Shown: one piece after another, positions 504 to 57,534 of the stretch
Layout of the letters: the number at the start of each line of letters is the position of its first letter
How positions within the stretch are numbered: the stretch's first letter is position 1
Assembly (NCBI GenBank): GCA_017443345.1
Contig: JAFSNR010000008.1
Coordinates: forward strand, 1-64,000
DNA: 64,000 nucleotides
Source: Prevotella sp.
Lineage (GTDB): Bacteria > Bacteroidota > Bacteroidia > Bacteroidales > Bacteroidaceae
Reading direction: 5' to 3'
Made by a program: the position numbers and the translations under genes
The notes under the pieces: generated by a model
Told to the model about the DNA's origin: nothing
The model's input: only the letters and a program-made list of their open reading frames with translations
The model's database searches: none

Positions 504-566
504 GAGTTTAGAGTTTAGAGTTTAAAGTTTAGAGTTTATAGTTTAAAGTTTAAAGTTTATAGCTTA
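504..566 (+). repeat. Heptamer array (class A, gagttta) between HU-like gene and smalltalk gene
   Basis: Nine consecutive 7-nt units of the form (g/a/t)agttta, the last being tagctta. The array begins 4 nt after the upstream stop codon and its final base is the A of the smalltalk ATG at 566. Units contain TAG or TAA, so stops occur in all three frames. Confidence 0.9.
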
Positions 567-673
567 TGACAAAGAAGGAAACGCTTAAGTGGTCGCTGCA
601 GATACTCGCTTCGATTATCTCAGCTGTGCTGACGGCACTTGGTACGACCTCGTGTATGGGGTATGTGGCCTAG
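566..673 (+). CDS. Smalltalk family peptide
   Basis: A 35-residue ORF starting MTKKETLKWSLQ and ending CMGYVA. It has one hydrophobic segment (about residues 10-28, LQILASIISAVLTALG) followed by TTSCMG. This matches the pattern of the Bacteroidetes smalltalk proteins, tiny hydrophobic peptides with a Lys-rich start and a TSC near the end, usually found next to HU-like genes. Its function is unknown. It follows the HU-like gene on the same strand, separated only by the heptamer array, and a hairpin terminator follows at 687-716, so the two are probably co-transcribed. It could be a single-pass membrane peptide; the Cys does not sit in a convincing lipobox. Confidence 0.8.
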   Translation: MTKKETLKWSLQILASIISAVLTALGTTSCMGYVA

Positions 674-686
674 AATCTTAAAAACA

Positions 687-716
687 ATCATCCCCAACCG
701 AATGGCTGGGGATGAT
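687..716 (+). terminator. Hairpin terminator after smalltalk gene
   Basis: A perfect 10-bp stem (atcatcccca / tggggatgat) with a 10-nt loop, starting 13 nt after the smalltalk stop. It probably also ends the convergent gene at 727-1206, although there is no long T run on either side. Confidence 0.75.
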
Positions 717-726
717 CGTTTATGGT

Positions 727-1206: not shown

Positions 1207-1237
1207 CTCTTTTAACTCTTTTATATCTTAGACGTTG

Positions 1238-1245
1238 CAAAGGTA
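1238..1245 (-). promoter_or_regulatory. -7 element (TACCTTTG) for the secreted protein
   Basis: On the minus strand the sequence reads TACCTTTG, matching the Bacteroidetes -7 consensus TAnnTTTG, 32 nt before the start at 1206. Confidence 0.7.
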
Positions 1246-1315
1246 AGCATTTATTAATGACATTACAAGAATTTTTGGCTAAAAATTCAAAAAATGGCCG
1301 TAAACGATTACCTTT

Positions 1316-1353
1316 TTGACAAAAGTCAACGAGAATTGGTGTCAAATTGACAC
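1316..1353. promoter_or_regulatory. Cluster of TTGAC/GTCAA half-sites, possible operator
   Basis: Two inverted repeats share one half-site: TTGAC-aaaa-GTCAA (1316-1329) and GTGTCAA-a-TTGACAC (1339-1353). They lie upstream of the promoter at 1238-1245 and just beyond the 3' end of the beta-galactosidase gene. This is a candidate binding site for a dimeric regulator; no regulator can be named. Confidence 0.45.
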
Positions 1354-1361
1354 AAAAAGAA

Positions 1362-1385
1362 ATCTCCCAGCCGAAACTGGGAGAT
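1362..1385 (-). terminator. Rho-independent terminator of the beta-galactosidase gene
   Basis: A 9-bp stem (atctcccag / ctgggagat) with a 6-nt loop, followed on the minus strand by TTTCTTTTT. It sits just after the gene's stop codon at 1394. Confidence 0.8.
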
Positions 1386-5250: not shown

Positions 5251-5253
5251 ATA

Positions 5254-5288
5254 GGGGTTAGGGGTTGGAGGTTAGAGGTTAGAGGCTA
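5254..5288. repeat. Heptamer array (class F, gaggtta) ending at a stop codon
   Basis: Five 7-nt units (ggggtta, ggggttg, gaggtta, gaggtta, gaggcta). The last three bases are the complement of the TAG stop codon of the CpxP-like gene. Confidence 0.85.
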
Positions 5289-5714
5289 CTTCTTTTTGCG
5301 TTCCATGTGTCCGCGAAGGGCTCTGCGATGGAAACGATTCTCGGCCTTGATGACGTCGTAGACCTTGGATGCGGGCAGCACCTCGAAGAACTTCACGTGA
5401 TAACTCTGAGCGATGCGACGCTGCTCGAGTTCGAGTTCATCGCGCTTCTCCACAGCCTTGCGACAGGCCTTCTCGTCAGTAGGCTTGTTCTTACCCAGCT
5501 CCTTCATCTGCTTATAGACGGCGCGCTGCTTACACTGCATCTCACGATAGATGGGAAAGAACTTGGCTGCCTCATCGGCAGTGAGGTTGGCCTCCGTCGT
5601 CATAAACTGCTCAAGGGCGGCCTGGAACTTCTCGGGCGAGAACTTCTGCTGCTCCTCAGCGCGGACTGAGACCAGGGAGAATAGGAAGAGGGTGATAAGG
5701 ATAATCTGCTTCAT
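5286..5714 (-). CDS. CpxP/Spy-like periplasmic protein of the sigma operon
   Basis: A 142-residue protein with a signal peptide (MKQIILITLFLFSLVSVRA) and a mature part rich in charged helices. It includes an LTADEAAKFFPIYREM segment that resembles the LTxxQ-type helix of Spy/CpxP envelope stress proteins. It would act in the periplasm, possibly as a chaperone or sensor. The start at 5714 is preferred over the in-frame ATG at 5759, which lies inside the upstream gene and does not give an N-terminal signal peptide. It is the last gene of an operon of small secreted protein, ECF sigma factor, membrane protein and this protein. In Bacteroidales, sigma-70/anti-sigma/CpxP-like triplets of this kind are common. 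The function itself is an inference. Confidence 0.7.
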   Translation of the reverse strand: MKQIILITLFLFSLVSVRAEEQQKFSPEKFQAALEQFMTTEANLTADEAAKFFPIYREMQCKQRAVYKQMKELGKNKPTDEKACRKAVEKRDELELEQRRIAQSYHVKFFEVLPASKVYDVIKAENRFHRRALRGHMERKKK

Positions 5715-5727
5715 CGGACTGGTTGTA

Positions 5728-6078
5728 TTAATTATCTGACAACAAGGCATAAATCTCATGATTATCGAGCATCATGTAGTCGGCAGCCTCATCGATCGAC
5801 TCCTCCATAGACTCCTGCTGGGCAGCCATCTGGACTGGCGCCTCGGGCTGGGCCTCGGGCTGAGACATGAACAGCCAGGCAGCACCCGAGATAAACAACG
5901 CTGCGATACAGGCTGCTGCGATGTAGAGGGAACGACGCATACGCACCTGGCGCGCCTTAACGGGGCGCTCGGGCAACTGTTGCATCAACTGGGAGGCAAA
6001 TGCATCAAAATAGCCCTCGGGAACCTGATAGGGATTCCGACGGCCAACTCTTTCTTCTATGTACTTTTCGTCACTCAT
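5728..6078 (-). CDS. Small membrane protein, likely anti-sigma factor
   Basis: A 116-residue protein with a soluble N-terminus containing VPEGYFDAF, a motif seen in many Bacteroidales proteins encoded next to ECF sigma factors. One membrane helix follows (about residues 50-70, LYIAAACIAALFISGAAWLF) and then a short outer part rich in Q, E and A. The layout suits an anti-sigma factor that holds the sigma factor at the inner membrane, but no recognised zinc-binding anti-sigma motif is present. The start at 6078 (MSDEKYIEERVG) is preferred over 6105, which would crowd the sigma gene ending at 6111. It is 13 nt upstream of the CpxP-like gene. Confidence 0.65.
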   Translation of the reverse strand: MSDEKYIEERVGRRNPYQVPEGYFDAFASQLMQQLPERPVKARQVRMRRSLYIAAACIAALFISGAAWLFMSQPEAQPEAPVQMAAQQESMEESIDEAADYMMLDNHEIYALLSDN

Positions 6079-8464: not shown

Positions 8465-8484
8465 ATCATTATTTCATTTTTCAC

Positions 8485-8571
8485 ATTTTCTCAATTTCTC
8501 ATTATCTCATTTTCTCAATTTCTCGTTATCTCATTTCCTCAATCTCTCATTTCCCCAATCTCTCATTCTCC
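8485..8571. repeat. Octamer array (class C) spanning the end of mazG
   Basis: About eleven 8-nt units (attttctc, aatttctc, attatctc and variants; gagaaaat on the minus strand). The array codes for the last residues and the TGA stop of mazG and runs to within about 20 nt of the lipoprotein start. Same class as 30139-30226. Confidence 0.85.
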
Positions 8572-9437
8572 TTCGCTTCTTCCCAGAGGGCATCCATCTC
8601 ACCCAGCGTCATATCCTTCAGGGGTTTCCCCACCTTGATGCTGTGGGCCTCGATATAATTGAAACGACCGATAAACTTACGATTCGTCATCTCGAGGGCA
8701 TTGTCGGGATTGAGCTTATAGAGACGGGCTGCATTGATGACGCTGAAGAGAAAATCGCCCAACTCCTTCGTGGAGTTCTCCTTGTCTTCCTTGTTCAGCT
8801 CGACCTCCAGCTCATCGAGTTCCTCACGGACCTTCTTCCATACATCCTGGCGATCCTCCCAGTCAAAGCCCACATTGCGGGCCTTGTCCTGGATGCGATA
8901 GGCCTTAATCAGTGATGGCAGGGCCTCAGGCACACCAGAAAGGACGCTCTTGTTGCCATCCTTCTCCTTGAGCTTGATCTGCTCCCAGTTCTCGAGGACC
9001 TGCGAAACGGTTGTTACACTAGTAGTACTAGTCTTACTAGATTGACTAGTATTACTAGAAATACTAGTATCACTTGGTACAAAGGGCAACGGCTTTGGAT
9101 CGACGGCATTGATCTGGGAGGGATGATAGACGTGGGGATGACGGGTAATCATCTTCTTCGTCAGTGCATCGCAGACATCAGCCATATCGAACTGCTCCTT
9201 CTCCTCGGCAATCTTCGCATAGAAGCAGATATGGAGCAACACATCGCCCAACTCCTTACAGATGTCGTGAATGTCGTTCTTGATCAAAGCGTCGCAGAGT
9301 TCGTAAGTCTCTTCTATCGTATTGGGTCTCAGACTCTCGTTCGTCTGCTTCTTGTCCCAAGGACAATTGGCCCTTAACGCGTCTAAAACGTCAAGAAAAC
9401 GCCCGAAAGCCTGCATTTTTTCCTCTTTTGTATGCAT
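8547..9437 (-). CDS. mazG: MazG nucleoside triphosphate pyrophosphohydrolase
   Basis: A 296-residue enzyme that hydrolyses NTPs/dNTPs to monophosphates and pyrophosphate, for house-cleaning. The first MazG domain shows CPWDKKQT, EETYELCDAL and ELGDVLLHICFYAKIAEE with the metal-binding E-x-x-E and E-x-x-D pattern. The second has ELGDFLFSVINAAR. The linker holds a Ser/Thr-only tract at residues 122-145, encoded by a nonamer array (9019-9072) that is absent from the typical linker of relatives. The last residues (ENERLGK) and the stop codon are encoded by an octamer array. The start at 9437 fits the family (MHTKEEKMQAFGR) and a -7 element at 9457-9464. Divergent from valS. Confidence 0.93.
   Translation of the reverse strand: MHTKEEKMQAFGRFLDVLDALRANCPWDKKQTNESLRPNTIEETYELCDALIKNDIHDICKELGDVLLHICFYAKIAEEKEQFDMADVCDALTKKMITRHPHVYHPSQINAVDPKPLPFVPSDTSISSNTSQSSKTSTTSVTTVSQVLENWEQIKLKEKDGNKSVLSGVPEALPSLIKAYRIQDKARNVGFDWEDRQDVWKKVREELDELEVELNKEDKENSTKELGDFLFSVINAARLYKLNPDNALEMTNRKFIGRFNYIEAHSIKVGKPLKDMTLGEMDALWEEAKENERLGK
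9019..9072. repeat. Nonamer array (class D, ctagNNNNN) inside mazG
   Basis: Six 9-nt units, each beginning ctag: ctagtagta, ctagtctta, ctagattga, ctagtatta, ctagaaata, ctagtatca. Because 9 is a multiple of 3 the mazG frame is kept, giving a Ser/Thr-rich linker. Confidence 0.9.
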
Positions 9438-14015: not shown

Positions 14016-16052
14016 ATGGGAAAATTCATACTTACATCAGACTATCAACCCACAGGTGACCAACCAGAAGCCATCAGACAGCTGACGGAAGGTTTGGAGC
14101 GTGGTGACAAGGCTCAGGTGCTGCTTGGTGTGACTGGTTCTGGCAAGACCTTTACGATGGCAAACGTGATTGCCAACCGCAATCGCCCTACTCTCATCCT
14201 TAGTCACAACAAGACGTTAGCAGCCCAACTCTATGAGGAGATGAAAGGCTTCTTTCCTCAAAATGCCGTTGAGTATTATGTCAGCTATTATGACTATTAC
14301 CAGCCAGAGGCATATATCCCTTCGACAGATACCTATATTGAGAAAGACCTCAACATCAATGACGAGATAGACAGACTGAGACTGTCAGCCGTATCAAACT
14401 TACTATCAGGAAGAAACGACGTTATCGTTGTTTCTTCCGTTTCATGTATCTATGGTATGGGCAGTCCTGTGGCCTTGCAGGAGAATGTGATCGATCTGCA
14501 AGTAGGACAGAAGCTCGATCGCAATGCCTTGTTAAGGAAATTGGTACAGTCACTCTACGTCAGGAACGACCTGGACCTGCAACGTGGCAACTTCCGTGTG
14601 AAGGGTGATACTGTCGATATCGCGATGGCCTATAGTGAGGTCGTGTTGCGAGTCACCTTCTGGGATGACGAGATCGATGCCATCGAGGAAGTCGATGCCG
14701 TTACCTTCGACCGCCTGGCGAAGTTTGAGGAATACCGACTCTATCCTGCCAACCTCTTTATGACCTCACAGGAGCAGACGAATATCGCCATCCGTCAGAT
14801 ACAGGACGATCTGGTGAAGCAAGTTGCGTTCTTCGAGGAAATGGGCGACCCCATCAAAGCCCAGCGCATCAAGGAACGTGTGGAGTATGACATGGAGATG
14901 ATCAAGGAACTGGGCCATTGTTCAGGTATCGAGAACTACAGTCGCTACTTTGATGGACGACAGGCTGGCGAAAGGCCCTACTGTCTGCTTGACTTCTTCC
15001 CTGATGACTATCTGCTCTTCATCGACGAGAGTCATGTATCAGTACCACAGATCAGTGCGATGTATGGTGGTGACAGAAGCCGGAAGAGCAATCTTGTGGA
15101 ATACGGTTTCCGTCTGCCTGCTGCCTTCGACAATCGTCCCCTGCGCTTTGAGGAGTTCCAGCAGGAGGTGAATCAGGTGATCTACGTCAGTGCCACTCCT
15201 GCCGACTTTGAACTGGCAGAGGCAGAAGGTGTGGTCGTTGAACAGGTCATCCGTCCAACAGGGCTCTTGGATCCAGAGATTGAGGTCCGTAAGAGCGAGA
15301 ACCAGATCGACGACCTGATGGATGAGATACTGACCCGTAGTCATCGTGGCGAACGCGTCCTGGTTACCACCCTCACCAAACGCATGGCAGAGGAACTCAG
15401 CGAATATCTGCTGAATCATGGGGTACAGACAGCCTTCATCCATAGTGATGTAGCAACGCTCGACAGAGTCAAGATCCTCGCCGATCTTCGTCAGGGTGTC
15501 TACGACGTCCTTGTGGGCGTCAATCTGCTCAGAGAGGGACTGGACTTGCCAGAGGTTTCGTTGGTAGCCATCCTCGATGCTGATAAGGAGGGCTTCCTCA
15601 GGAGTCACAGGAGCTTGACCCAGACAGCAGGACGTGCAGCGAGAAACGTGAACGGTAAGGTCATCATGTACGCCGATACCATCACGGCCTCCATGCAGCT
15701 GACCATCGACGAGACCCTGCGCAGAAGGACGAAACAGATGCACTACAACGAGGAACATGGCATCACCCCCAAACAGATTGTGAAGAACCTCACCTTCAGC
15801 ACCCTGAAGAAGGACGACCGTGCAGATATCAAGGAACTGAAACGTGCCTCGAATATCCCATCAGACGGAAAGACTGGTGGCATGATGGTTGCTGACCCGA
15901 TTGTGGAGCGTATGACCAGACCACAGTTGGAGAAGAGTATTGCTGAGACAACCCGTCTGATGAAGGAGGCTGCAAAGAATCTCGACTTCTTGCAGGCTGC
16001 CCAATACAGAGACGAGATTATCCGTCTGCAGAAGGAGTTGGAACTGAAGTGA
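14016..16052 (+). CDS. uvrB: Excinuclease ABC subunit B
   Basis: A 678-residue DNA-damage verification helicase of nucleotide excision repair. The Walker A motif GVTGSGKT is at residues 38-45, the damage-probing beta-hairpin region YYDYYQPEAYIP follows, and then the FIDESH box, helicase motifs (VSATP, GVNLLREGLD, TAGRAARN) and the C-terminal UVR domain that binds UvrA/UvrC. Length matches the family. The start at 14016 is set by the promoter and by the canonical MGKFILTSDYQPTGDQP. The stop codon lies in a short gaagtgaagc stretch resembling class B repeats. Confidence 0.97.
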   Translation: MGKFILTSDYQPTGDQPEAIRQLTEGLERGDKAQVLLGVTGSGKTFTMANVIANRNRPTLILSHNKTLAAQLYEEMKGFFPQNAVEYYVSYYDYYQPEAYIPSTDTYIEKDLNINDEIDRLRLSAVSNLLSGRNDVIVVSSVSCIYGMGSPVALQENVIDLQVGQKLDRNALLRKLVQSLYVRNDLDLQRGNFRVKGDTVDIAMAYSEVVLRVTFWDDEIDAIEEVDAVTFDRLAKFEEYRLYPANLFMTSQEQTNIAIRQIQDDLVKQVAFFEEMGDPIKAQRIKERVEYDMEMIKELGHCSGIENYSRYFDGRQAGERPYCLLDFFPDDYLLFIDESHVSVPQISAMYGGDRSRKSNLVEYGFRLPAAFDNRPLRFEEFQQEVNQVIYVSATPADFELAEAEGVVVEQVIRPTGLLDPEIEVRKSENQIDDLMDEILTRSHRGERVLVTTLTKRMAEELSEYLLNHGVQTAFIHSDVATLDRVKILADLRQGVYDVLVGVNLLREGLDLPEVSLVAILDADKEGFLRSHRSLTQTAGRAARNVNGKVIMYADTITASMQLTIDETLRRRTKQMHYNEEHGITPKQIVKNLTFSTLKKDDRADIKELKRASNIPSDGKTGGMMVADPIVERMTRPQLEKSIAETTRLMKEAAKNLDFLQAAQYRDEIIRLQKELELK

Positions 16053-16111
16053 AGCGTGAAGAATGCCTCAGTTATGGTTAATAAAACCAAAAAAAAGGTA
16101 ATGCACGGATA

Positions 16112-16146
16112 CTTTTCACTTTTCACTTGACGCTTTTCACTTCTTT
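16112..16146. repeat. Heptamer array (class B) between uvrB and the DUF4468 gene
   Basis: Five 7-nt units: cttttca, cttttca, cttgacg, cttttca, cttcttt. It ends 4 nt before the -7 element at 16151. Confidence 0.85.
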
Positions 16147-16974: not shown

Positions 16975-16980
16975 AAGGAA

Positions 16981-17022
16981 GTGAAGAGTGAAAAGTATAA
17001 AGTGAAGAGTGAAAGACGAATA
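16981..17022. repeat. Heptamer array (class B) up to the porin start codon
   Basis: Units gtgaaga, gtgaaaa, gtataaa, gtgaaga, gtgaaag and a divergent acgaata; the ATG of the porin gene at 17023 follows in the same 7-nt register. Confidence 0.85.
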
Positions 17023-19392
17023 ATGAGAAACAAAATATACAAGCTTTGGATGCTGAAGGTGGGAGTGATGCTTTTCACTTTTCACTTCTCACTTCTCACC
17101 TCCTTTGCCCAGGACACGTTTAACCAGATCGACGAAAGGGGCAACGTGACCCAACGCAGCGACAATACGAAATTCAACAAACACAACAACGACACCACCA
17201 AAAACAAGGAGATTCCCAAGGGCATCTATGTATGGACCATCGACAGGAAATTCGGCAATGTGATTCCTGCAGTGCCTGATACCCTGCCACACCTCTTTAT
17301 GAATACCACCTTCAATAGTGGCACCTATGGCGAGTTCAACCACACGGGTAACAACTACACATCGCGCCTGAGCAGAATCTTCATCAACCGTCCTGTTGTC
17401 AACGACATCTTCATCTTCACTGCGCCCTACACCTTTGCGGAGAAGAGACCAGAGAAATTCCTGTTTATGAACACCCTGTCGCCTTATACCAACGTGCTCT
17501 ACGACAACTGTGGCGACAAGACCAACGGTGAGGACCATATCGATGCCAAGTTTGCCGTCAATGCCAATAAGCGCTTCAACGTAGGATTCGACCTCGACTA
17601 TGCCTATGCCAGAGGCTACTACAGCAATCAGAATATCTCGCACTTCAACGCTACCATCTTCGCCTCGTATCTGGGTGACAAATACAACATGCACCTCTTC
17701 TTTAATACGGCCCATCAGAAAGCCAATGAGAACGGAGGTGTTGCTGACGATGAGTATGTGACCCACCCTGAATCAAAGGAGAGCAGCTATGGAGAGAACG
17801 AGATCCCCACGATTCTTTCGTCGAACTGGAACAGAAACGATCACCAGCATATCTTCCTCTCCCACCGTTATAACATCGGATTCTACAGGATGGTGAAGAT
17901 GACTGAGGCAGAGATCAAGGCGAAGAAGTTTGCTGAAGAATCACGTAAACAGAAGGAAGCGAAAGAAGGAAAAGACAAACTCGAAAATAGCGGACGCGAC
18001 CAGAAAGAACCAGCGAAGAAAACCCCTTCCGGACGTCCTGAGGGTGCCAAGATCATGGGTAAGGAACCCACAGGCATCAAGGACTCCCTGAACACCGCTA
18101 TTGACACTACCCGTATTCAGGTTGACAGTCAGGCTGCTATCGACAGTCTGAATCGCCTGAAGGCCATCGAGGATTCCATCAACGCCACGATGAAACGTGA
18201 GTATGTACCTGTCACCAGTTTCATCCACACCTTTGAGTTGAACAACTACGATCATATCTATCAAGCCTACACGACCCCTACGGGCTACTATCTGAACAAA
18301 TACTATACGCAGGGTCTGACGTATGGCAACGATTCGATCTATGACCAGTCGAAACACTTCCAGATGAAGAACACTTTCGGACTGGCCCTGCTAGAAGGCT
18401 TCAACAAATACATGAAGGCAGGACTGAAGGGATTTATCACCCATGAGTATCGTACGTTCAGTATGCCTGACACCTTAGGAGCCACCACCTTCAAACAATC
18501 GTGGAAAGAACATAACATCAGTGTGGGAGGTCAGTTGAGCAAGACCCAGGGTAAGACACTGCACTTCAACTTGCAGGCAGAGTTCTGGCTGGCTGGTGAG
18601 GATGCAGGACAGTTACATGCCGACTTTAGCACTGACCTGAACTTCCCTCTCTTCGGCGATACTGTCAGACTCGCTGCCTCGGCCTATTTCCATAGAGACA
18701 ACCCCGTCTTCTTCCAACGCACCTATCACTCGAAACACTTCTGGTGGGATCATGATGATATGGCCAAGGAGACACGTACCCGTCTGGAGGGACTCTTCAA
18801 ATACGAGAAGACGAACACAGCCCTACGCGTAGCCATTGAGGAAATCCAGAACTACACCTATTACGGCATGAGCTACGACGCCACCTCGACGGCTCGTACG
18901 AACATGACGGCAGGAGTCTACCAGGAATCAGGCAACATCAATATCCTTACTGCCCAGCTGCATCAGAACTTCCGTTTAGGACCTCTGAACTGGGAGAACG
19001 TGATCACCTATCAGAACTCGAGCAATAAGGATGTACTGCCTTTGCCCACCTGGAATATCTTCACGAACCTCTATCTGAAGTTCAGGATTGCCAAGGTGCT
19101 GGGTGTGGAACTGGGAGCCGATGCCACCTTCTTCTCGAAATACTATGCTCCAGACTTCTGCCCAGGCATCAATCAGTTTGCCATCCAGCAGAATGAAGCC
19201 AGCAAGGTGGAACTGGGCGGCTATCCCTTCATCGACGTCTATGCGAACATGGTGCTGAAGGGTGTCCGATTCTTCGTGATGATGAGTCATGTGAACAATG
19301 GCTCAGGCAACCACATGAAGTTCCTCGCTCCCCACTATCCGACGAACGGCAACGTGCTCCACCTGGGTGTCTCGTGGAACTTCTTTAACTAG
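17023..19392 (+). CDS. Putative outer-membrane porin (Porin_10 type)
   Basis: A 789-residue protein with a signal peptide ending SFAQ, predicted to form an outer-membrane beta-barrel. The C-terminal two-thirds has alternating aromatic/hydrophobic strands (WKEHNISVGGQLSKTQG, AEFWLAGEDAGQLHADF, YHSKHFWWDHDD) and ends in Phe-Asn after GVSWNFF. The pattern matches the Bacteroidetes putative porin family (PF14121). A Lys/Glu-rich insert at about residues 290-345 may be a periplasmic or surface loop. The start is set at 17023; upstream frame is repeat. The signal peptide core itself (LFTFHFSLLTS) is coded by a heptamer array (17071-17105). The TAG stop lies in a nonamer array shared with menA. Confidence 0.82.
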   Translation: MRNKIYKLWMLKVGVMLFTFHFSLLTSFAQDTFNQIDERGNVTQRSDNTKFNKHNNDTTKNKEIPKGIYVWTIDRKFGNVIPAVPDTLPHLFMNTTFNSGTYGEFNHTGNNYTSRLSRIFINRPVVNDIFIFTAPYTFAEKRPEKFLFMNTLSPYTNVLYDNCGDKTNGEDHIDAKFAVNANKRFNVGFDLDYAYARGYYSNQNISHFNATIFASYLGDKYNMHLFFNTAHQKANENGGVADDEYVTHPESKESSYGENEIPTILSSNWNRNDHQHIFLSHRYNIGFYRMVKMTEAEIKAKKFAEESRKQKEAKEGKDKLENSGRDQKEPAKKTPSGRPEGAKIMGKEPTGIKDSLNTAIDTTRIQVDSQAAIDSLNRLKAIEDSINATMKREYVPVTSFIHTFELNNYDHIYQAYTTPTGYYLNKYYTQGLTYGNDSIYDQSKHFQMKNTFGLALLEGFNKYMKAGLKGFITHEYRTFSMPDTLGATTFKQSWKEHNISVGGQLSKTQGKTLHFNLQAEFWLAGEDAGQLHADFSTDLNFPLFGDTVRLAASAYFHRDNPVFFQRTYHSKHFWWDHDDMAKETRTRLEGLFKYEKTNTALRVAIEEIQNYTYYGMSYDATSTARTNMTAGVYQESGNINILTAQLHQNFRLGPLNWENVITYQNSSNKDVLPLPTWNIFTNLYLKFRIAKVLGVELGADATFFSKYYAPDFCPGINQFAIQQNEASKVELGGYPFIDVYANMVLKGVRFFVMMSHVNNGSGNHMKFLAPHYPTNGNVLHLGVSWNFFN
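17071..17105. repeat. Heptamer array (class B) encoding the porin signal-peptide core
   Basis: Four exact-register units (cttttca, cttttca, cttctca, cttctca) plus a fifth, cctcctt, inside the coding sequence. They are the same units as in the intergenic array at 16112-16146. Confidence 0.85.
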
Positions 19393-19424
19393 AAAGACTA
19401 GTTGTACTAGTAATACTAGAAATC
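19389..19424. repeat. Nonamer array (class D) joining two convergent stop codons
   Basis: Four 9-nt units: ctagaaaga, ctagttgta, ctagtaata, ctagaaatc. It contains the TAG of the porin gene (19390-19392) and ends at the first base of the menA stop codon complement (19424). Confidence 0.9.
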
Positions 19425-27793: not shown

Positions 27794-27825
27794 TTTTGGG
27801 ATTTTGGGATTTTGGGTTTTTGGGT
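27794..27825. repeat. Octamer array (class G, ttttggga), left arm
   Basis: Four 8-nt units: ttttggga, ttttggga, ttttgggt, ttttgggt. It is matched in inverted orientation by the array at 27946-27977. Confidence 0.85.
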
Positions 27826-27865
27826 TTTTATAATATTTTAATTGGTATTTTTATATACTAATATA

Positions 27866-27903
27866 TTAGAATTAATATAATATAAATATTATATTAATTC
27901 TAA
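27866..27903. repeat. 38-bp AT palindrome
   Basis: A perfect 18-bp stem (ttagaattaatataatat and its complement) around a 2-nt centre, almost wholly A/T. It is placed centrally between the two octamer arms. Confidence 0.85.
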
Positions 27904-27945
27904 ATCAAAATTGACGTTTATAGGAGATGATGATACACGTATTTT

Positions 27946-27977
27946 TCCAAAATATCCAAAATCCCAAAATCCCAAGA
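27946..27977. repeat. Octamer array (class G), right arm, inverted
   Basis: Four 8-nt units: tccaaaat, atccaaaa, tcccaaaa, tcccaaga. They are the complement of the left-arm unit. Confidence 0.8.
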
Positions 27978-28059
27978 TTGTGTTGTCTTTTACAGTGCAG
28001 CGTATTGAAGAAGCAATAAAAATAAACGGCAATTACCGTGTGACAAACGTCGCTTAATC

Positions 28060-28222: not shown

Positions 28223-30148
28223 ATGACAAATGATATGGACAGCAAGAAGCAGAAGGCGCGCCTAGCTCTGATATTGAAGACAGGCAGGCTGCGGCTGTGG
28301 TTCTACTACCCAGCCACTCGCCACTACTGCTACCTGTCGGAGGCCGGCGAGTACAGTCCCGAATACAACCCCTCGGAGTTCGGACAGCTGTTTCACCGCG
28401 ACGACATGGAGAAGCTGCGCAGCGTGGTGTTCGACATCTGCGACGGCAAGCGCGAAAATGCAGAAGTGACGTTACGCAGCAGGGCAGCCAGGGAGTCGGA
28501 GTGCAGCCACTACAACATGGCGGTCTCCGTGGCCAGCCGCGACGAGAACGGCCTCCCCACCCAGCTGATGGGCATCCAGCACGACGTGACCGACGAGTAT
28601 CGCCACCAGGAGAAGACCAGCCAGCTGCTGATGCGCTATCACACCATCTTCAACTCCTCGCTGCTCGACATGCTCTACTACGACAAGAACGGTGCACTGG
28701 CCGACATCAACGAGCGCGCCTGCAAGGCCTTCAATGTGCAGAGCCGCGAACAGGTGCTCGACGGCAGCTTCCTGCTGAAGAACAACCCTTTCTACAGCCA
28801 GATACCCCTGAAAGAGATGGAGAACTCGCTGACGGGCAGCATCATCGACTTCAGTGAGTTCGAATCGCCCGAATACCGTCTGGACGAATTCGAGCTGAAG
28901 GGCAAGATGTACTACGAGTCGACCATCAACCCGATCCGCAACGAGGAGGGCGAGTTGGAAGGCATCTACATGGCAGGTCACGACATCTCGGAGATGGTCA
29001 ACTCCTTCCATCGTCAGCAGGCAGGCGTCAGGAAACTGAAGCAGGGCACGGAGAGCATCCGGCAGTACATCGCCAACATCGACTATGCCCTGAGCGTCAG
29101 CGGTGTGCAGCTGGCGAACTACTACCCCAAGGCCTATACCTTCGAGCTCATCAACCGCGAGACGCGCCAGAAGCTGCGCATGTCGCAGTTGCGCTGCATC
29201 CGACTGGCCACCATGCGCTTCCGTCGCACCGTGAACAGTGCGCTGAACCGAATGGACCACCTGACCAAGCGAGGCATCGTGCAGGCCATCGAGACGGAGA
29301 TCCGCGACAAGAAAGGCCGTCAGATATGGCTGCTGTTCAACATGGTGCCCATGCTCGATGCAGAAGGCAACGTGGAGCGCTACTTCGGCACCTATCGCGA
29401 CATCACCGACATGGTGGAGACAGAGGAGCGGCTGGCTGTGGAGACGAAGAAAGCCCAGGAAACGGAGCTGCTGAAGCAGGCCTTCCTGACGAACATGAGC
29501 TACGAGATACGTACACCGTTGAACAACATCGTGGGCTATGCCGGGCTCTTCACCAGCGAGCACGACGAACAGGACGAGCCCTTCTTCATGGACCAGATCA
29601 AGCAGAGCACCGACGAACTGCTGCTCCTGGTCAACGACATCCTCTACATCTCGCGCCTCGAAGCCAACATGGAGGAGTACAAGAAGGAGGTGACCGACTT
29701 TGCCTTGGCCTTTGAAGGTCAGTGCCAGATAGGTCTGAAGAACATCGCCCCAGAGGTACAACCCATCGTCATACAGCCTTATAGCAGTCTGATGGTAGAC
29801 ATCGACCTCAACCATGTGGCGATGATCGTCCAGCGCCTGTGCAACCTGGCCTGTCTGCTGACCACGCAGGGCTCCATCACCGTCAGCTGTGAGCACCATC
29901 GCGGCGAGTTGACCATTCGTATCCAAGATACGGGTGTGGGCTTCGCCACAGAAGTGTTGCCTCGCATCTTCGAGCACTTCACGCGTAATATAAGAGGAGG
30001 TCTGATTGGCTCTGGTCTCGACCTGCCGATCGTACAGCTGCTGACGCAGCAGATGGGTGGCACCATCGAGATCCAGTCGGACTACCAGAAGGGCACGAGC
30101 ATATGGGTATCCATCCCCTGTACGGCATCCGTGATCGAGAGGAAATGA
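28223..30148 (+). CDS. PAS-domain histidine-kinase-like protein lacking the phospho-acceptor His
   Basis: A 641-residue soluble protein with no membrane segment. Three PAS-like sensor domains (about residues 15-125, 135-260 and 270-400) precede a HisKA-like region and an HATPase domain. In the HisKA motif the sequence is MSYEIRTPLN: Tyr427 replaces the phosphorylated His. The ATPase N-box is also degenerate (LCNLACLLT), while the G1 box QDTGVGF, the F-box IFEHF and a G2-like GSGLDL remain. It is therefore probably a pseudokinase or a regulator of its neighbour. The next gene is a paralogue with the His intact. The last codons and stop lie in an octamer array. Confidence 0.85.
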   Translation: MTNDMDSKKQKARLALILKTGRLRLWFYYPATRHYCYLSEAGEYSPEYNPSEFGQLFHRDDMEKLRSVVFDICDGKRENAEVTLRSRAARESECSHYNMAVSVASRDENGLPTQLMGIQHDVTDEYRHQEKTSQLLMRYHTIFNSSLLDMLYYDKNGALADINERACKAFNVQSREQVLDGSFLLKNNPFYSQIPLKEMENSLTGSIIDFSEFESPEYRLDEFELKGKMYYESTINPIRNEEGELEGIYMAGHDISEMVNSFHRQQAGVRKLKQGTESIRQYIANIDYALSVSGVQLANYYPKAYTFELINRETRQKLRMSQLRCIRLATMRFRRTVNSALNRMDHLTKRGIVQAIETEIRDKKGRQIWLLFNMVPMLDAEGNVERYFGTYRDITDMVETEERLAVETKKAQETELLKQAFLTNMSYEIRTPLNNIVGYAGLFTSEHDEQDEPFFMDQIKQSTDELLLLVNDILYISRLEANMEEYKKEVTDFALAFEGQCQIGLKNIAPEVQPIVIQPYSSLMVDIDLNHVAMIVQRLCNLACLLTTQGSITVSCEHHRGELTIRIQDTGVGFATEVLPRIFEHFTRNIRGGLIGSGLDLPIVQLLTQQMGGTIEIQSDYQKGTSIWVSIPCTASVIERK

Positions 30149-30226
30149 GAGATTGAGAAAATGAGAAAATGAGAGATTGAGAAAATGAGAGATTGAGAAA
30201 ATGAGAAAATGAGAGATTGAGGGATG
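30139..30226. repeat. Octamer array (class C) between the two kinases
   Basis: Eleven 8-nt units (gagaaaat, gagagatt and variants) running without interruption. The first two contain the TGA stop of the upstream gene (30146-30148) and the last, gagggatg, contains the ATG of the next gene (30224). Confidence 0.92.
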
Positions 30227-32134
30227 AAGACGAAGCATATATTTGACGAGCAACAGGCCATGATGACGGCTCTCGACATCAGCGGCAACCACGTGATGTG
30301 TCTCGACCTGCAACAGAACCGTGTGTTCGATCTGCACGGAAAGGCCATATTCGGGAATAACTTGGGCATCGAGGTGTGTTATACCTACATCCATCCCGAC
30401 GATCAGGACGTGTTCCGTACGTTCATCGAGCGCCTGAGCGACGGCACGGACAAGGAGGCAGAATGCCGTTATCGCTGGAACTACAACTATACAGGCCAGG
30501 GCGACCCCGACTGGCACGACATGCACGGCTATGCCATCGCCGAGTATGAAGACGGGAAGCCTGTGAACATCATCGCCACCCTGACCGACGAGACCGACCT
30601 GAAGCGGAAGGAGCGCGAGGTGGAACAGCTCTACAGCCGATACAAGACCATCTTCGAGAACTCCATCATCGGACTCTCGTTCTATACCCCTGACGGCTGG
30701 CTGGTGGATGCCAACCGCATCATGCGCAAGCTCTGTAACTTCGATAGCGAGGAAGGCGACGAGTTCTTCTCGAAGATGAACCTCTTCGACATGTCGCCCT
30801 TCAACGAGGTGCTGGATCACGATCATCCAGATGACTACTGGGCCTGTTCGCTGAGCATCATCCCAGAAAGGAATATGCACGTTTATCTGGAGATCAGCGT
30901 CCACCCCATCTACGACGAGAAGAACCAATTGGTGTATATCGCCGTATCGGCCAACGATGTCACAGAGGAGCGCGAGATGTATCTCAACGTGACGGAGAAC
31001 GACGTACAGATGCAGAAGATGAACGAGGCCATCAAGAACTACGAGGCCGAGCTGCGCTACATGATGGAATCGTCGAAGATGCAGGCCTGGCGCATCAGTC
31101 TCGACCGTAACATCATCGAGTTCTATAGCGGTCTGAACACGGTGGTACGCTCCTTCGATCTGCTACAGATGCAGAAGATCTTCGTTGATCAGGAACATCC
31201 ATTCGTGAAAGCCCAGTCGATGTCCACCCTTTCCGAAACCTTGAGCAAGCCACTGATTTATAGAGGCCAGATGTATCCCGTGGTATCCCAAAGCTCCACA
31301 GAACTACAGTGGGTACAGGTTAACGGTATCCCAGAATACGACAAGGACGGACGGCTTATAGGCGCCTTCGGTATCTGGCGAAACATCAATGACATCATGC
31401 ATAAGCAGGACCAGTTGCGCAGTGAGACCCAGCGCGCCAGGGAGTCAGGACAGATGAAGAGTCTCTTCCTGGCCAACATGACCCACGAGATACGCACGCC
31501 CATCAATGCCATCGTGGGTTTCTCGGAGGTACTGAGCACCCTCACCTCGTCGGAGGAGAAGAAAGAGGTCATCCAGATCATCAAGAACAACTGCGACATG
31601 TTGTTGCGCCTGGTGAACGATATCCTGACGGCCTCCTCGCTCGAGACCGGAAAAGTGAGCATCCAACCTGTCGACGTGGACTTCTCCAAGACGTTCAACG
31701 AACTCTTCGAATCGCTGCGACCGAGGATGCAGGAGCCTGGTGTGGAGTTCCAGAAGGACAATCCCTATGACACCCTGCCTATCAAGATCGATGCCGACCG
31801 TATGTCACAGGTCATTACCAACTTCGTCACGAATGCCGTCAAGTACACCCATCAGGGACATATCAAACTGGGCTACCGCAAGGAGAACAGGACTGTCGAC
31901 GGACAGCAGCGCGAGGGGCTGTACGTCTATTGTGAGGATACGGGCGACGGTGTGCCTCAGGAGAGTCAACCCAAGATCTTCGAACGTTTCTTCAAGGTCA
32001 ATGACTTCATCCAGGGCACAGGTCTCGGTCTGTCGATCTGTAAGGCCTTCGCTGATGCCTGTCATGGCGACATCGGCGTCATCTCGGAGGGCAAAGGCAA
32101 AGGCTCCACGTTCTGGACCTGGATTCCATTGTAA
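30224..32134 (+). CDS. PAS-domain sensor histidine kinase
   Basis: A 636-residue soluble histidine kinase. Three PAS-like domains (about residues 10-135, 145-265 and 280-400) are followed by HisKA with the phospho-acceptor His421 in MTHEIRTPIN. The HATPase domain has N-box NFVTNAVKYT, G1 CEDTGDGV, F-box IFERFF and G2 GTGLGLSIC, all intact. No membrane helix, so it senses cytosolic signals. No response regulator is fused or adjacent. Its paralogue upstream lacks the His, suggesting a heteromeric pair. The TAA stop is inside a heptamer array. Confidence 0.93.
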   Translation: MKTKHIFDEQQAMMTALDISGNHVMCLDLQQNRVFDLHGKAIFGNNLGIEVCYTYIHPDDQDVFRTFIERLSDGTDKEAECRYRWNYNYTGQGDPDWHDMHGYAIAEYEDGKPVNIIATLTDETDLKRKEREVEQLYSRYKTIFENSIIGLSFYTPDGWLVDANRIMRKLCNFDSEEGDEFFSKMNLFDMSPFNEVLDHDHPDDYWACSLSIIPERNMHVYLEISVHPIYDEKNQLVYIAVSANDVTEEREMYLNVTENDVQMQKMNEAIKNYEAELRYMMESSKMQAWRISLDRNIIEFYSGLNTVVRSFDLLQMQKIFVDQEHPFVKAQSMSTLSETLSKPLIYRGQMYPVVSQSSTELQWVQVNGIPEYDKDGRLIGAFGIWRNINDIMHKQDQLRSETQRARESGQMKSLFLANMTHEIRTPINAIVGFSEVLSTLTSSEEKKEVIQIIKNNCDMLLRLVNDILTASSLETGKVSIQPVDVDFSKTFNELFESLRPRMQEPGVEFQKDNPYDTLPIKIDADRMSQVITNFVTNAVKYTHQGHIKLGYRKENRTVDGQQREGLYVYCEDTGDGVPQESQPKIFERFFKVNDFIQGTGLGLSICKAFADACHGDIGVISEGKGKGSTFWTWIPL

Positions 32135-32144
32135 ACCGTAAACT
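32131..32144. repeat. Heptamer pair (class E, gtaaacc) joining two stop codons
   Basis: Units gtaaacc and gtaaact. The first contains the kinase TAA stop and the second overlaps the TAG stop of the convergent epimerase-like gene (32143-32145). Confidence 0.65.
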
Positions 32145-36004: not shown

Positions 36005-36222
36005 TGAACAGATCACACTGCGAGTACTAATATACGGGGCGTGCCGCATAGATCGGGATACTCGACATTTAAAATAAACTTTGGGACCGTTTCCCTTGCC
36101 AATGGCGGGCCACGATGATCCTTCACTGGAGAGCAGCAATGCCGGTGGATTACAACAGCAGGGAGCACCCATATCTTGTGAAACAGGAGTTTTCACCAAA
36201 TCATCGGCACGTACCCTTTTTT
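36005..36222 (+). ncRNA. Candidate structured RNA upstream of riboflavin synthase
   Basis: A promoter-led segment with no ORF of note. Its ends pair over long range: ggg-g-cgtgccg (36036-36046) with cggcacg-ta-ccc (36205-36216), followed by six T, which looks like a terminator. Internal hairpins include gtgaaa/tttcac (36178-36195) with caggag in the loop. A competing 5' stem, cgagta/tactcg (36021-36026 and 36059-36064), overlaps the same region. It could be a stand-alone RNA of 6S size or a leader that controls ribE by attenuation. It does not match the FMN riboswitch consensus as I know it. Confidence 0.5.
36205..36222 (+). terminator. 3' arm and T run of the candidate RNA
   Basis: The arm cggcacgtaccc is followed by tttttt. 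The partner arm is about 165 nt upstream, so the terminator depends on a long-range fold. Confidence 0.45.
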
Positions 36223-36230
36223 CATGTTTA

Positions 36231-36249
36231 TAGTTTAGAGTTTAGAGAG
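36231..36249 (+). repeat. Short heptamer array (class A) up to the ribE start
   Basis: Units tagttta, gagttta and a partial gagag, ending directly at the ribE ATG (36250). Confidence 0.75.
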
Positions 36250-36849
36250 ATGTTTTCTGGAATCATTGAGGAATTTGCTACAGTTGTAGCGATCAAGAAA
36301 GACCGCGAGAATATTGATTTTACGTTGACTTGCTCATTCGTTGACGAGTTGAAGATCGACCAGAGCGTCGCCCATAACGGCGTCTGTCTGACCGTTGTAG
36401 CCATTGAGGGTAACCAATATGTGGTAACAGCCATGAAGGAAACGCTTGATCGTACGAACCTCAGTCTGCTGAAGGTGGGCGACAAGGTGAACGTGGAGCG
36501 CTCGATGCTGATGAACGGACGCCTCGACGGCCACATCGTCCAGGGCCATGTCGACGAAACGGCCAAGTGCATCGCCATGGAAGATGCAGACGGTAGTACC
36601 TATTTCACTTTCAAATATCCAGAGAACCGTGAGATGGCGAAGAAGGGTTACTTTACAGTGGATAAAGGTTCAGTGACAGTGAATGGTGTATCCCTGACCG
36701 TCTGCAACCCCACCTCGAACACTTTTCAGGTGGCCATCATCCCCTACACTTTCGAGCACACGAACTTCTGCGACATCCAAGTTGGGACAGTCGTGAATCT
36801 TGAGTTCGATATCCTGGGAAAGTATATCGCGAGACTACAGAGCTTATAA
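36250..36849 (+). CDS. ribE: Riboflavin synthase, alpha chain
   Basis: A 199-residue enzyme that dismutates two lumazine molecules to riboflavin. It has the typical internal duplication of two barrel domains: MFSGIIEEFATV...NGVCLTV...GHIVQGHVD and then GYFTVDKGSVTVNGVSLTV. Length fits the family. The start at 36250 is fixed by the conserved MFSGIIE; a longer frame from 36115 runs through the leader RNA. Its 3' end overlaps the convergent phosphatase gene by 6 nt. Confidence 0.96.
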   Translation: MFSGIIEEFATVVAIKKDRENIDFTLTCSFVDELKIDQSVAHNGVCLTVVAIEGNQYVVTAMKETLDRTNLSLLKVGDKVNVERSMLMNGRLDGHIVQGHVDETAKCIAMEDADGSTYFTFKYPENREMAKKGYFTVDKGSVTVNGVSLTVCNPTSNTFQVAIIPYTFEHTNFCDIQVGTVVNLEFDILGKYIARLQSL

Positions 36850-55098: not shown

Positions 55099-55104
55099 TG
55101 TTAC

Positions 55105-56631
55105 ATGGTGAAAGTCCAATATAATAGACTATCACAATATGCCGGTGAAAACGGAGGAAGAGTATTATTGCTCTTTCTCCTATTTTTACTAAGCATATAT
55201 TCCTTCATAAATTCAGGCATAACTGGCATGGCAGCCATAGCCATGTCCCCTCTAATTATTGTATTTGTTTATTTGGCATTCAAAAATAGGATGTTTACTT
55301 TTTGGGTGTTATTCTTCATAAATTATTTCTTAATGTTTTTAAATAGAGAAGGATACCTCCCTATCCCTGTCTCATTACCAAACGAATTGTTAGAACTTGT
55401 ACTTATTGCTATTGCTATTGTTGACTTGCGAGAATCTAACTTTGAAAACTTAGCGAACCTAATGACAATTGGAGTTGTTGGATGGTGTATCTTTTGTATA
55501 TTAGAAGTTTTAAATGACACATGTGGCTTAGGTATTAATATCAATGCATGGTTCAATGGTATCAGACTTATTGCCTTTCTGTTATTGTACATTGTTATTG
55601 TTTTTGCTTTATATATAACAACACCTAAGCGTTTATATCAGTTAATTATTTGTTGGGCATGTTTATGCTTATTTGCAGATTATTGGTCATGGCAGCAGCA
55701 AAATATCGGCTTTACACAAGCTGAAACTTCATGGCTATATGGATATGCTTATCGAACTCACTTAGTTAATGGTATAACTCGTTATTGGTCTATTTTCAGT
55801 GATGCAGCATGTTTTGGCGTTCATATGGCTGCAGCTTCTACTGCTTTCTTTATTATTGCTATAACTAATAAAGTACGGAAATATAAGATCTTTTTTTTAA
55901 TTGTTGGAGTATTATCTACATGGCAAATGTTTGCTTCAGGAACGCGTACTGCAATCTATTGCATGATGGCAGGATTTGCTATATTCCTTGTGTTATCAAA
56001 ATCAGTTAAAATCATTGTACCTGTATGTGTTATATTTGGTATTTTTTTATGTATGCTAATCTTTACGGATATAGGACAGGGGAATGCACAAATACGGCGT
56101 ATGCGTTCTGGTTTTAATAAAAATGACGCATCTGCAAATGTAAGAGAAATCAACAAAGCAGCCATAGCAAAATATATGAAAGACGCTCCATGGGGAATTG
56201 GTATAGGAATCTATACAGATGACATTCCTGCTTGGAACAAATTTAAACTTGTCTCCTTAATACCACCAGACTCAGAATATGTTTTTATATGGGTAAGAAC
56301 TGGTTGGATTGGTGTTTCGTGGTTTGCCATTATGAATGCCCTAATGTTGGGCGGAGCATGTTGGATTGTTTTCTTCAGACTAAAAAACAAATCTCTCACG
56401 GGTATTGGGGCTGCTTGGTGTGCGGCATTTACAGCTTTACATCTTGGTGGTTATGCGAATCAAATCCTCCTTCAATATCCTAATGCTCTCGTTTTTTATG
56501 GAGGTTTGACAACTGTTTATCTATACCCCAAGATGGAACAAGACTTTATAAAACACGAAAATAAACTGCTAGAAAAAGAAGAAGAGAGGAAGAGGCTAAA
56601 ATTAGAAAAGAAACTTGCAAAACGAGTATAA
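55105..56631 (+). CDS. Wzy-like polymerase / O-antigen ligase family protein
   Basis: A 508-residue protein with about ten to twelve membrane helices. The Wzy_C-type region shows FASGTRTAIYCMMAG, then a periplasmic loop with RRMRSGFNKNDASANVRE and PWGIGIGIYTDD, and a later helix. It probably polymerises repeat units at the outer face of the inner membrane. The C-terminus is a Lys/Glu-rich cytosolic tail (LLEKEEERKRLKLEKKLAKRV). It starts 6 nt after the copolymerase and overlaps the next gene by 17 nt. Confidence 0.82.
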   Translation: MVKVQYNRLSQYAGENGGRVLLLFLLFLLSIYSFINSGITGMAAIAMSPLIIVFVYLAFKNRMFTFWVLFFINYFLMFLNREGYLPIPVSLPNELLELVLIAIAIVDLRESNFENLANLMTIGVVGWCIFCILEVLNDTCGLGININAWFNGIRLIAFLLLYIVIVFALYITTPKRLYQLIICWACLCLFADYWSWQQQNIGFTQAETSWLYGYAYRTHLVNGITRYWSIFSDAACFGVHMAAASTAFFIIAITNKVRKYKIFFLIVGVLSTWQMFASGTRTAIYCMMAGFAIFLVLSKSVKIIVPVCVIFGIFLCMLIFTDIGQGNAQIRRMRSGFNKNDASANVREINKAAIAKYMKDAPWGIGIGIYTDDIPAWNKFKLVSLIPPDSEYVFIWVRTGWIGVSWFAIMNALMLGGACWIVFFRLKNKSLTGIGAAWCAAFTALHLGGYANQILLQYPNALVFYGGLTTVYLYPKMEQDFIKHENKLLEKEEERKRLKLEKKLAKRV

Positions 56632-57517
56632 ATTATCGATTATCACAGTCAATTACAATGGTCTGAAAGACACCTGCGCATTGATTGAGTCCATCCCCTT
56701 CAATGAAAACATGGAGGTGATAATAATAGATAATGCCTCTAAACAAGATGAAGCAAGTATTATCGCTCAACATTACCCATATGTTAAAACAATTCGAACA
56801 GATAAGAACCTAGGTTTTGCAGGTGGCAATAATATTGGAATCAAAGAAGCCAAAGGACAGTTCTTATTCCTAATAAATAATGACACGGTTTTTAAAGAGT
56901 TCAATGTTGAGCCTTTGACAAACAGATTAGAATCTTCGCCTAAGATTGGGATAATTTGCCCCAAAATTCGTTTTACATGGGGAACAAATCCTATCCAGTA
57001 CGCTGGCTATACGCCACTTTCAAAAATAACTGTTCGTAATCAGGCTATTGGATTTGGCGAAGAAGACCAAAGTCAATATGACACAGCCCATCCGACTCCT
57101 TATGCTCATGGTGCTGCTATGATGATAAAGCGAGAAGCGATAGAGAAAGTAGGCCTCATGCCTGAAGATTATTTTCTCTATTATGAGGAAATAGACTGGT
57201 CGATAATGTTTGCAAAAGCAGACTACAAAATATGGTATGATCCTGCATGCACTATTTATCACAAAGAAAGTCAAAGTACAGGACAAGATAGTCCTTTACG
57301 TACCTATTATATAACACGTAATCGACTTCTTTTAGTCAAACGCAACTGGCAAAGTGTTTATAAATATCTAGCCTATTCTTATCTAATATGTATAGTCGCT
57401 CCTCGAGATTTGCTCAAATATACTCTTAAAGGCAAGATTGCTCATGCCAAGGCCGTCAAGAAAGGGCTTTCTGACTTTTGCCTATCAAGGTATTCATCTA
57501 TAAACTATAAACAATAA
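56615..57517 (+). CDS. Family 2 glycosyltransferase (rhamnosyltransferase-like)
   Basis: A 300-residue GT-A-fold transferase. The N-terminus SIITVNYNGLKDT, DNAS (nucleotide binding), LGFAGGNNIGI, INNDT (metal-binding DxD-type position) and FLYYEEIDW are as in rhamnosyl- and related GT2 enzymes. The start is TTG at 56615, overlapping the polymerase gene by 17 nt; no ATG fits. The stop and last codons (SSINYKQ) lie within a heptamer array. Confidence 0.88.
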   Translation: MQNEYKLSIITVNYNGLKDTCALIESIPFNENMEVIIIDNASKQDEASIIAQHYPYVKTIRTDKNLGFAGGNNIGIKEAKGQFLFLINNDTVFKEFNVEPLTNRLESSPKIGIICPKIRFTWGTNPIQYAGYTPLSKITVRNQAIGFGEEDQSQYDTAHPTPYAHGAAMMIKREAIEKVGLMPEDYFLYYEEIDWSIMFAKADYKIWYDPACTIYHKESQSTGQDSPLRTYYITRNRLLLVKRNWQSVYKYLAYSYLICIVAPRDLLKYTLKGKIAHAKAVKKGLSDFCLSRYSSINYKQ

Positions 57518-57534
57518 ACTATAAACTCAACGAA
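57500..57534. repeat. Heptamer array (class A', ataaact) between two glycosyltransferase genes
   Basis: Units ataaact, ataaaca, ataaact, ataaact and caacgaa, exactly 35 nt, ending at the next ATG (57535). The stop codon of the upstream gene is in the third unit (57515-57517). Confidence 0.88.

Follow-up and report, generated by a model that had tools for sequence, protein, structure and literature searches.

Arrays of 7-, 8- and 9-nucleotide units at gene junctions of a rumen Prevotella-type bacterium and their probable origin in local duplication

Families of heptamer repeats that recur at many loci of one genome are known from cyanobacteria, where they are called short tandemly repeated repetitive (STRR) sequences. 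The arrays considered here, built of units of 7, 8 or 9 nucleotides (nt) and lying mostly in gene junctions, were noticed in a stretch of 64,000 nt (positions 1 to 64,000 of contig JAFSNR010000008.1, assembly GCA_017443345.1; hereafter the window) from a rumen Prevotella-type bacterium, whose draft genome (G000) amounts to 4.16 Mb in 204 contigs. They constitute a strong mutational pattern that belongs to a known kind, is for the most part unexplained and is new for the genus as far as the search extended.

Heptamer arrays have been described in cyanobacteria, Beggiatoaceae, Xanthomonas and a few Bacteroidetes. As summarised in part of PMC4679880, the survey of long simple sequence repeats (LSSR) by Mrazek et al. 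2007 covered units of 1-11 nt and found heptamers to be the top class in most genomes, with a phylogenetically scattered distribution; slippage via a 7-nt polymerase contact was proposed, and the heptamer preference had only this proposed cause. The present arrays resemble LSSR in being longer than expected by chance and in having heptamers as the most abundant class. They differ in that births can be traced at orthologous junctions, where relatives carry different units, and in that the DNA sampled from the host genome holds no arrays of 5-nt units and two of 6-nt units. The TAACTGA arrays of MacGregor 2015 (PMC4679880) lie mostly just upstream of start codons, with one just after a stop, and close relatives have shorter gaps without obvious arrays; five Bacteroidetes are also covered there. 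Shared with that system are the heptamer period, the occurrence in Bacteroidetes and relatives without arrays, whereas a single unit there contrasts with a variety of units, 7, 8 or 9 nt long, in the present genome. As to position, 37 of 73 co-directional arrays run from stop to start, with a stop register far above the start register. No tandem pair of exact TAACTGA copies, in any rotation or on either strand, was present in 845,647 bases of the host genome.

The GGGNATC heptamers described by Rehm 2015 (PMC4692102) for Xanthomonas and Nostoc are likewise dispersed, over-represented in non-coding DNA and placed near stop or start codons, while the main families here, AGTTTAN and AGTGAAN, lack GGG, which is found in the rarer TTAGNGG heptamers and TTTTGGGA octamers. 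In Borg elements, according to PMC9879509, tandem repeats arose independently and recently, partial repeats are suspected to have been their seeds, and coding sequence makes use of them. Independent origins, suspected seeds and use in coding sequence recur in the present case, but the units of Borgs are perfect and have lengths divisible by three when they lie in genes, whereas those described here are imperfect and keep period 7 inside open reading frames (ORFs). No paper on such arrays in Prevotella was found by title and abstract opening, in a search whose coverage mostly excluded subscription journals, and the main text of PMC4060949, as far as available, does not name Prevotella. The statement in the preliminary description of the window that nothing of the kind was known for this lineage agrees with this search as regards Prevotella, but PMC4679880 describes heptamer arrays in five Bacteroidetes.

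Period range, placement and register

Arrays were counted on contigs of the host genome sampled from those with matches in earlier searches, though not around the matches; because these contigs came from match-bearing ones, array density and family shares may run high. A strict set (score of at least 14) was taken from 462,000 bases, with one dinucleotide shuffle as control, and a softer set (score threshold 12) from 845,647 bases. The arrays are genuine and far exceed chance expectation: the strict set contains 33, 11 and 5 arrays of periods 7, 8 and 9, none of periods 1-6 and one each of periods 10, 11 and 12, and the shuffled sequence contains none at any period. Some strict-set arrays have periods of 14-30, chiefly multiples (14, 16, 21) and period 22, the last being mostly separate longer units (2 of 11 are 11-mers). 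In the softer set, periods 7, 8 and 9 account for 78, 29 and 12 arrays, periods 2-5 for none, period 6 for two, periods 10-12 for 3, 8 and 6, period 13 for none, and periods 14 and 15 for 7 and 3. Short exact runs of 8-10 matches were counted in 95,340 bases of intergenic DNA, the expected place of nascent duplications. They number 39 at period 7, 22 at period 8, 16 at period 9 and 7 at period 10, against 3.6, 3.0, 3.1 and 2.5 in shuffled sequence; period 6 gives 8 against 3.5, period 5 gives 4 against 5.1, and periods 3-5 all stay under the shuffled counts.

The 119 softer-set arrays of periods 7-9 comprise 73 in co-directional gaps, 7 in convergent gaps, 11 in divergent gaps and 28 in mostly coding DNA, corresponding to 1.46, 0.58, 0.50 and 0.037 arrays per kb. 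Genes were called with a simple purpose-made ORF caller that starts some genes too late, so that part of the arrays assigned to junctions are in fact within signal peptides. The co-directional preference is not general, because G003, G007, G008 and G009 are richer in arrays in convergent or divergent gaps. It had been claimed that arrays fill junctions from stop codon to start codon, which is the case for 37 of the 73 co-directional arrays and not for the other 36.

Among these 37 gap-filling arrays, the stop codon lies in register (overlap of at least 2 nt) in 24, against 5.7 in a phase-shift control that set the codon to other phases of its own array; none of 20,000 draws reaches 24. The start codon, treated in the same way, is in register in 6 of 37, against 1.9 (P 0.004). 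Register with stop codons is thus strong and with start codons modest, and the proposal that the register runs into the neighbouring genes stands to the same degree. When ends of other genes were swapped in, stop register fell to 10.8 (maximum 18 in 200 draws); swapped ends with the same stop codon gave 24.1 against the 24 observed, and the register effect therefore sits in the stop codon itself. Donor starts with the same start codon gave 5.8 against 6, in a control that retains the codon itself.

Stops in every frame had been regarded as a design feature that might insulate translation. On the sense strand, gap-filling arrays have stops in all three frames in 22 of 37 cases against 26.1 for shuffled units, and on the antisense strand in 20 against 13.3; for other co-directional arrays the sense-strand figure is 18 of 31 against 14.5 (38 of 500 shuffles reach 18), and for coding arrays 1 of 23 against 4.8. 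Gap-filling sense strands compared with shuffled units thus do not suggest that selection has favoured stops in all frames of the mRNA. Insulation of translation is unsupported because all-frame sense-strand stops are not enriched, and it was dropped after this test; the rbfA-lolC junction, moreover, has no array in 22 of 30 loci. In composition, the sense strands of gap-filling arrays are G-rich in 32 cases, C-rich in 4 and neutral in 1, compared with 58, 42 and 8 for array-free gaps of 15-90 nt and a ratio of 378 G-rich to 164 C-rich for gene ends.

Wholly within an ORF ending at a called stop lie 38 of the 119 arrays. Eight of these satisfy a simple signal-peptide-like rule of our own, as exemplified by the window porin LFTFHFSLLTSFA and by lipoprotein-like ends ILVLLVLLIVLGC; the same rule assigns such an N terminus, a segment that makes up a small share of all codons, to 157 of 543 genes. 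The nonamer array within mazG of the window encodes the linker TSISSNTSQSSKTSTTS, which is shorter in G023, G025 and G069 and of about equal length with another sequence in G027. Repeat DNA is thereby shown to feed coding sequence, both signal peptides and linkers.

Orthologous junctions and related genomes

For the comparison of junctions, the best 30 loci per search were read and all 120 loci were oriented by alignment. At rbfA-lolC, 9 of 30 loci lack an array and have the two genes overlapping by 4 nt, ATGA (L233, L234, L236, L244, L250, L253, L254, L256, L257), and 8 carry junction arrays of eight different units: AGTTTAN in the host genome, an octamer in L232, AGTTCAN in L237, AATTAAG in L238, CTCTCAC in L239, a TCTTAA-like unit in L246, a 21-mer of three heptamers in L247 and AGTGAAA in L249, a count that omits two period-9 matches inside the rbfA coding sequence. 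In the other loci the gaps are short, and some of them contain one or two sub-threshold units. Arrays are present, host genome included, in 6 of 30 loci at ribE, 4 of 30 at tsaD and 3 of 30 at lpxA; in these junction counts the tsaD array of L201 falls outside the stretch read, and repeats of L242 and L248, visible by eye, fall below the threshold. All matches at periods 4-12 in the four junctions have period 7, 8 or 9. At a junction of two glycosyltransferase genes in the window, arrays are present in 9 of 29 nearer species, where every one has period 7 and seven words occur, and in 0 of 32 farther species; there is one match of period 11. The nearest named relative at this junction (L069, 81% DNA identity) carries an array of the same family whose length agrees within two bases. 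Related species thus have arrays of other units, or none, at orthologous junctions, and different words at one junction point to a copying quirk rather than a shared signal. Together with the sharp period range, these different units favour the common generating process that had been suggested for the window.

Likely single-copy seeds can be recognised, from sequence comparison, in relatives at three junctions. Between two histidine-kinase genes, about 80 nt of octamers in the window correspond to a single AAATGAG at the stop codon in G027; among the ten loci returned, the gene pair is apparently common to G027 and G025 only, and G025 lacks such a word. At the mazG-lipocalin junction, a single AATGAA stands in G023 and about three units stand in G027, whereas G036 carries AGTGAAA four times and AGTAAAA once. 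Upstream of lpxA, one GATTGAAAT in G023 corresponds to an octamer array in the host genome. Length steps were compared between two species, with one genome per species. Of 27 G023 loci with AGTTTANAGATRA, a pattern of AGTTTAN array plus end unit, 20 were fetched and 10 matched the host-genome sample; at the seven AGTTTAN loci common to both, in-array gaps of at least 10 nt measure 14, 21, 25 and 35 nt, three of which (14, 21 and 35 nt) fit whole heptamers. Growth by slippage, another earlier suggestion, is supported by the likely seeds and by these three gaps, beside the one of 25 nt.

The genus includes species whose samples are rich in arrays and others whose samples have none. Arrays of periods 7-9 number 45 in 300,000 bases of G009, 12 in 95,728 of G003 and 2 in 27,722 of G006, and none was detected in 180,000 bases of G004 or 120,000 of G010; the ORF caller failed on G010 (3.6% coding), which was used for period counts only. 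G007 has 12 in 89,401 bases and G008 25 in 120,000, in stretches partly chosen around matches. The relatives' stretches L035, L036 and L048 contain earlier search matches, and L030, L033, L039 and L044 were excluded from the period counts as too short. No array was detected in 133,598 bases from seven genomes of other families of the order, nor in 9,778 bases of G001, a member of the genus. Of 61 named loci around a single glycosyltransferase gene, 23 have arrays of periods 7-9 (36 arrays in total), against one array of any period in the shuffled control; these are 7 of 29 nearer and 16 of 32 farther loci, so that nearer species are not richer. A simple mismatch-repair switch was considered and rejected, as the MutS mismatch domain is matched in 7 of 8 genomes, array-rich and array-free alike, with no match in array-rich G009 and six in G000; no on/off genomic correlate emerged, MutS being the only gene tried. 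The six G000 matches lie on contigs C52, C18, C9, C40, C124 and C76 and represent paralogues or foreign contigs; because they could mark foreign contigs, genome-wide counts may include foreign sequence.

The 78 heptamer arrays of the softer set fall into 13 clusters, among them AGTTTAN with 35 arrays and AGTGAAN with 16. When 30 AGTTTAN loci were entered for the context of the end AGATGA, 27 were placed and 23 counted; the end is directed at a co-directional downstream gene in 16 of the 23 and otherwise in 7. At some AGTTTAN loci the arrays form inverted pairs, and a few of these pairs enclose a related centre. In L296, L309 and L316 of the host genome and L335 of G023, this centre is about 38 nt long and contains TGTTCTATAG and GGCTTGC; some copies encode, by eye, a 13-residue peptide that starts with MFY and ends with NQL. 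Exact centre matches number 3 in G000, 3 in G023 and 0 in 58 other genomes, and with these six matches in 60 genomes the idea of a mobile element with a fixed centre was rejected.

Origin of the arrays and competing explanations

The arrays probably, though far from certainly, result from local tandem duplication that has occurred again and again, in steps of 7 and less often 8 or 9 nt. The observations behind this reading are the period range, the concentration in junctions, the stop register, the differences between units, the likely seeds and the length gaps, mostly multiples of 7. During replication or repair, a strand that slips and realigns over 7-9 nt would duplicate a short stretch, often an A/G-rich gene end including the stop codon; the repeats would lengthen by further slippage and diverge by point mutation, and selection would purge most coding arrays, leaving survivors in spacers, signal-peptide cores and linkers. 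The position of most arrays is explicable without function, and single arrays may be used as a leader or hairpin.

Several observations weigh against tandem duplication as the whole account. It gives no reason for a step of 7 rather than 5 or 6. Each seed is one word, for which a chance match is possible, and the length data concern differences between species, within-species variation being the direct sign of slippage. The 25-nt gap and a 6-nt gap in the L338 array are no multiples of 7, and since an AGTTTAN array is present in both species at 7 of the 10 matched G023 loci, some arrays are old and not labile. Start register above the phase-shift control is not predicted, and the G-rich bias of gap-filling arrays is stronger than in array-free gaps and is matched only in part by the bias of gene ends. 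Slippage alone also leaves unexplained the sharing of units and the spread of AGTTTAN to dozens of sites: among the 78 heptamer arrays, 648 of 3,003 unit pairs lie within one mismatch, compared with 121.9 after letter shuffling (maximum 163), and AGTTTANAGATRA occurs 51 times in the host genome and 27 times in G023, with 0-6 occurrences in 58 others; the reversed pattern occurs once in the host genome and 0-3 times overall. Because similar arrays with the common end AGATGA stand at dozens of loci, AGTTTAN needs a second step, which, as a guess, might be copying from array to array, for example by template switching.

That spread is also what a dispersing cassette would produce, in which at least AGTTTAN moves with a defined end, AGATGAT, and with some inverted pairs, in the manner of a miniature mobile element. 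The contrast between AGTTTANAGATRA and its reversed form suits this possibility, as do the 7 of 23 contexts in which the end is retained without facing a co-directional gene, the related centres of some inverted pairs, and the pair of L335, missing from the orthologous junction of the host genome. No target duplication was established, however, the related centre is rare, and other families at like sites need no cassette, so that the idea is regarded as doubtful. Rather improbable, too, are functional leaders or insulators, that is, an unstructured purine-rich leader for the next gene or a halt to run-on translation. The G-rich sense strands, the start register, the 16 of 23 contexts in which AGATGA points towards a co-directional gene and the array at the ribE junction, which sits between a structured RNA and the ATG, would all fit a leader. 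Yet all-frame stops are enriched on the antisense and not on the sense strand, housekeeping junctions do without arrays in most loci (22 of 30 at lolC, 24 of 30 at ribE, 26 of 30 at tsaD, 27 of 30 at lpxA), and a G-strand bias is absent from the co-directional arrays of both G008 (6 G, 10 C) and G009 (10 and 10).

Recognition of each unit by a protein that binds RNA or DNA, an idea put forward in PMC4679880 for the TAACTGA arrays of Beggiatoaceae, would account for the regular spacing, the conserved core with a free base (NAGTTTA) and the proximity to starts; it is very unlikely, given that units vary between species at one junction, several families coexist in one genome, and arrays also occur in convergent gaps and within genes. 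As the draft genome consists of 204 contigs, an assembly artefact of draft metagenome bins might be suspected, but records titled as isolates (L112, Prevotella sp. tf2-5; L120, Xylanibacter brevis ATCC 19188) carry arrays as well, which makes an artefact hardly credible.

With duplication as the favoured account of array birth, it may be speculated, at low confidence, that some Prevotella genomes possess a heritable copying activity with a grip of 7-9 nt, absent in congeners, which would write arrays at gene ends and copy favoured words to distant sites, yielding new spacers, signal-peptide cores and linkers. Since one junction allows births to be set beside seeds and empty sites, the cause is testable by genome comparison and mutation accumulation.

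Arrays of the window and further repeats

Arrays of the window were located with Tandem Repeats Finder and direct reading of the letters, and every array listed in the preliminary description was recovered, with ends within about 20 bases. That list lacked the mazG nonamers at 9018-9074, the porin heptamers at 17071-17099 and the inverted octamers at 27794-27829 and 27945-27979; weak arrays are those at 32131-32144 (two units), 36226-36247 (3.1 units) and 19388-19423 (74% matches). Several families are indeed present, as had been stated, though fewer than counted: gagttta, ataaact and gtaaacc are one family (NAGTTTA) on two strands, gtgaaaa and ttttcac are one family (AGTGAAN), and one kind of word, on opposite strands, makes up the octamers at both 8466 and 30139.

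To the NAGTTTA family belong nine units at 504..567 (plus strand), between an HU-like gene (stop at 499; model match below the curated cut-off) and a smalltalk-protein gene (ATG at 566; match above it), and two units at 32131..32144 (minus strand) between convergent stop codons, found by direct reading and too short to stand alone. The same family supplies the ATAAACT heptamers (in gene sense) at 57498..57534 (minus strand), between the two glycosyltransferase genes, where other species have other heptamers, and three AGTTTAN units at 36226..36249 (plus strand), between a Bacteroidales-1 RNA and riboflavin synthase (ATG at 36250). The RNA, at 36037-36220, is an Rfam match, suggested there to be 6S-like, and lies directly 5' of the array and the riboflavin synthase gene; a by-eye reading as a flavin mononucleotide (FMN) riboswitch upstream of ribE was dropped in its favour. 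AGTGAAR heptamers at 16979..17022 (plus strand) abut the start of the porin gene (ATG at 17023), and their opposite-strand form CTTTTCA occupies 17071..17099 (plus strand) in the porin signal peptide, coding LFTFHFSLLTS; CTTTTCA heptamers also stand at 16111..16146 (no strand assigned), between uvrB (stop at 16052) and a DUF4468 gene (16184). TAGGGGT/TAGAGGT heptamers (4.9 units, 5252..5288, no strand assigned) end on the stop codon of a gene that occupies 5286-5759 on the minus strand.

Octamers GAGAAAAT/GAGAGATT lie at 8466..8567 (minus strand, units in gene sense), between mazG (stop at 8547) and the lipocalin-like gene, and at 30139..30226 (plus strand), where they span the whole gap between the two histidine-kinase genes. 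TTTTGGGA octamers form the left arm (27794..27829, plus strand) and right arm (27945..27979, minus strand) of an inverted pair in a divergent gap, 27794-27979, around an AT-rich centre. Nonamers with CTAG every 9 nt run inside mazG at 9018..9074 (minus strand), where they encode an S/T-rich linker between two domains, and four nonamers CTAGNNNNN at 19388..19424 (no strand assigned) separate the stop codons of the convergent porin and UbiA-family genes.

Elsewhere in the host genome, in-frame heptamer inserts coding SPLT-type segments are found at L148 2313, L148 12955 and L018 17008, in genes that by eye resemble those for DNA ligase, RecQ and a non-ribosomal peptide synthetase (putative names). 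At L148 464, an AGTGAA array is followed by its inverse and a T run, an arrangement that by eye is terminator-like and built of repeat units. Dispersed 22-nt direct repeats around AGTTAAGAG occur at L019 3374-3430, L026 4809-4895 and L134 6407-6465, and other 22-nt arrays have sequences unrelated to this family; because their spacing is about two helical turns, the 22-nt repeats are suggestive of regulator sites.

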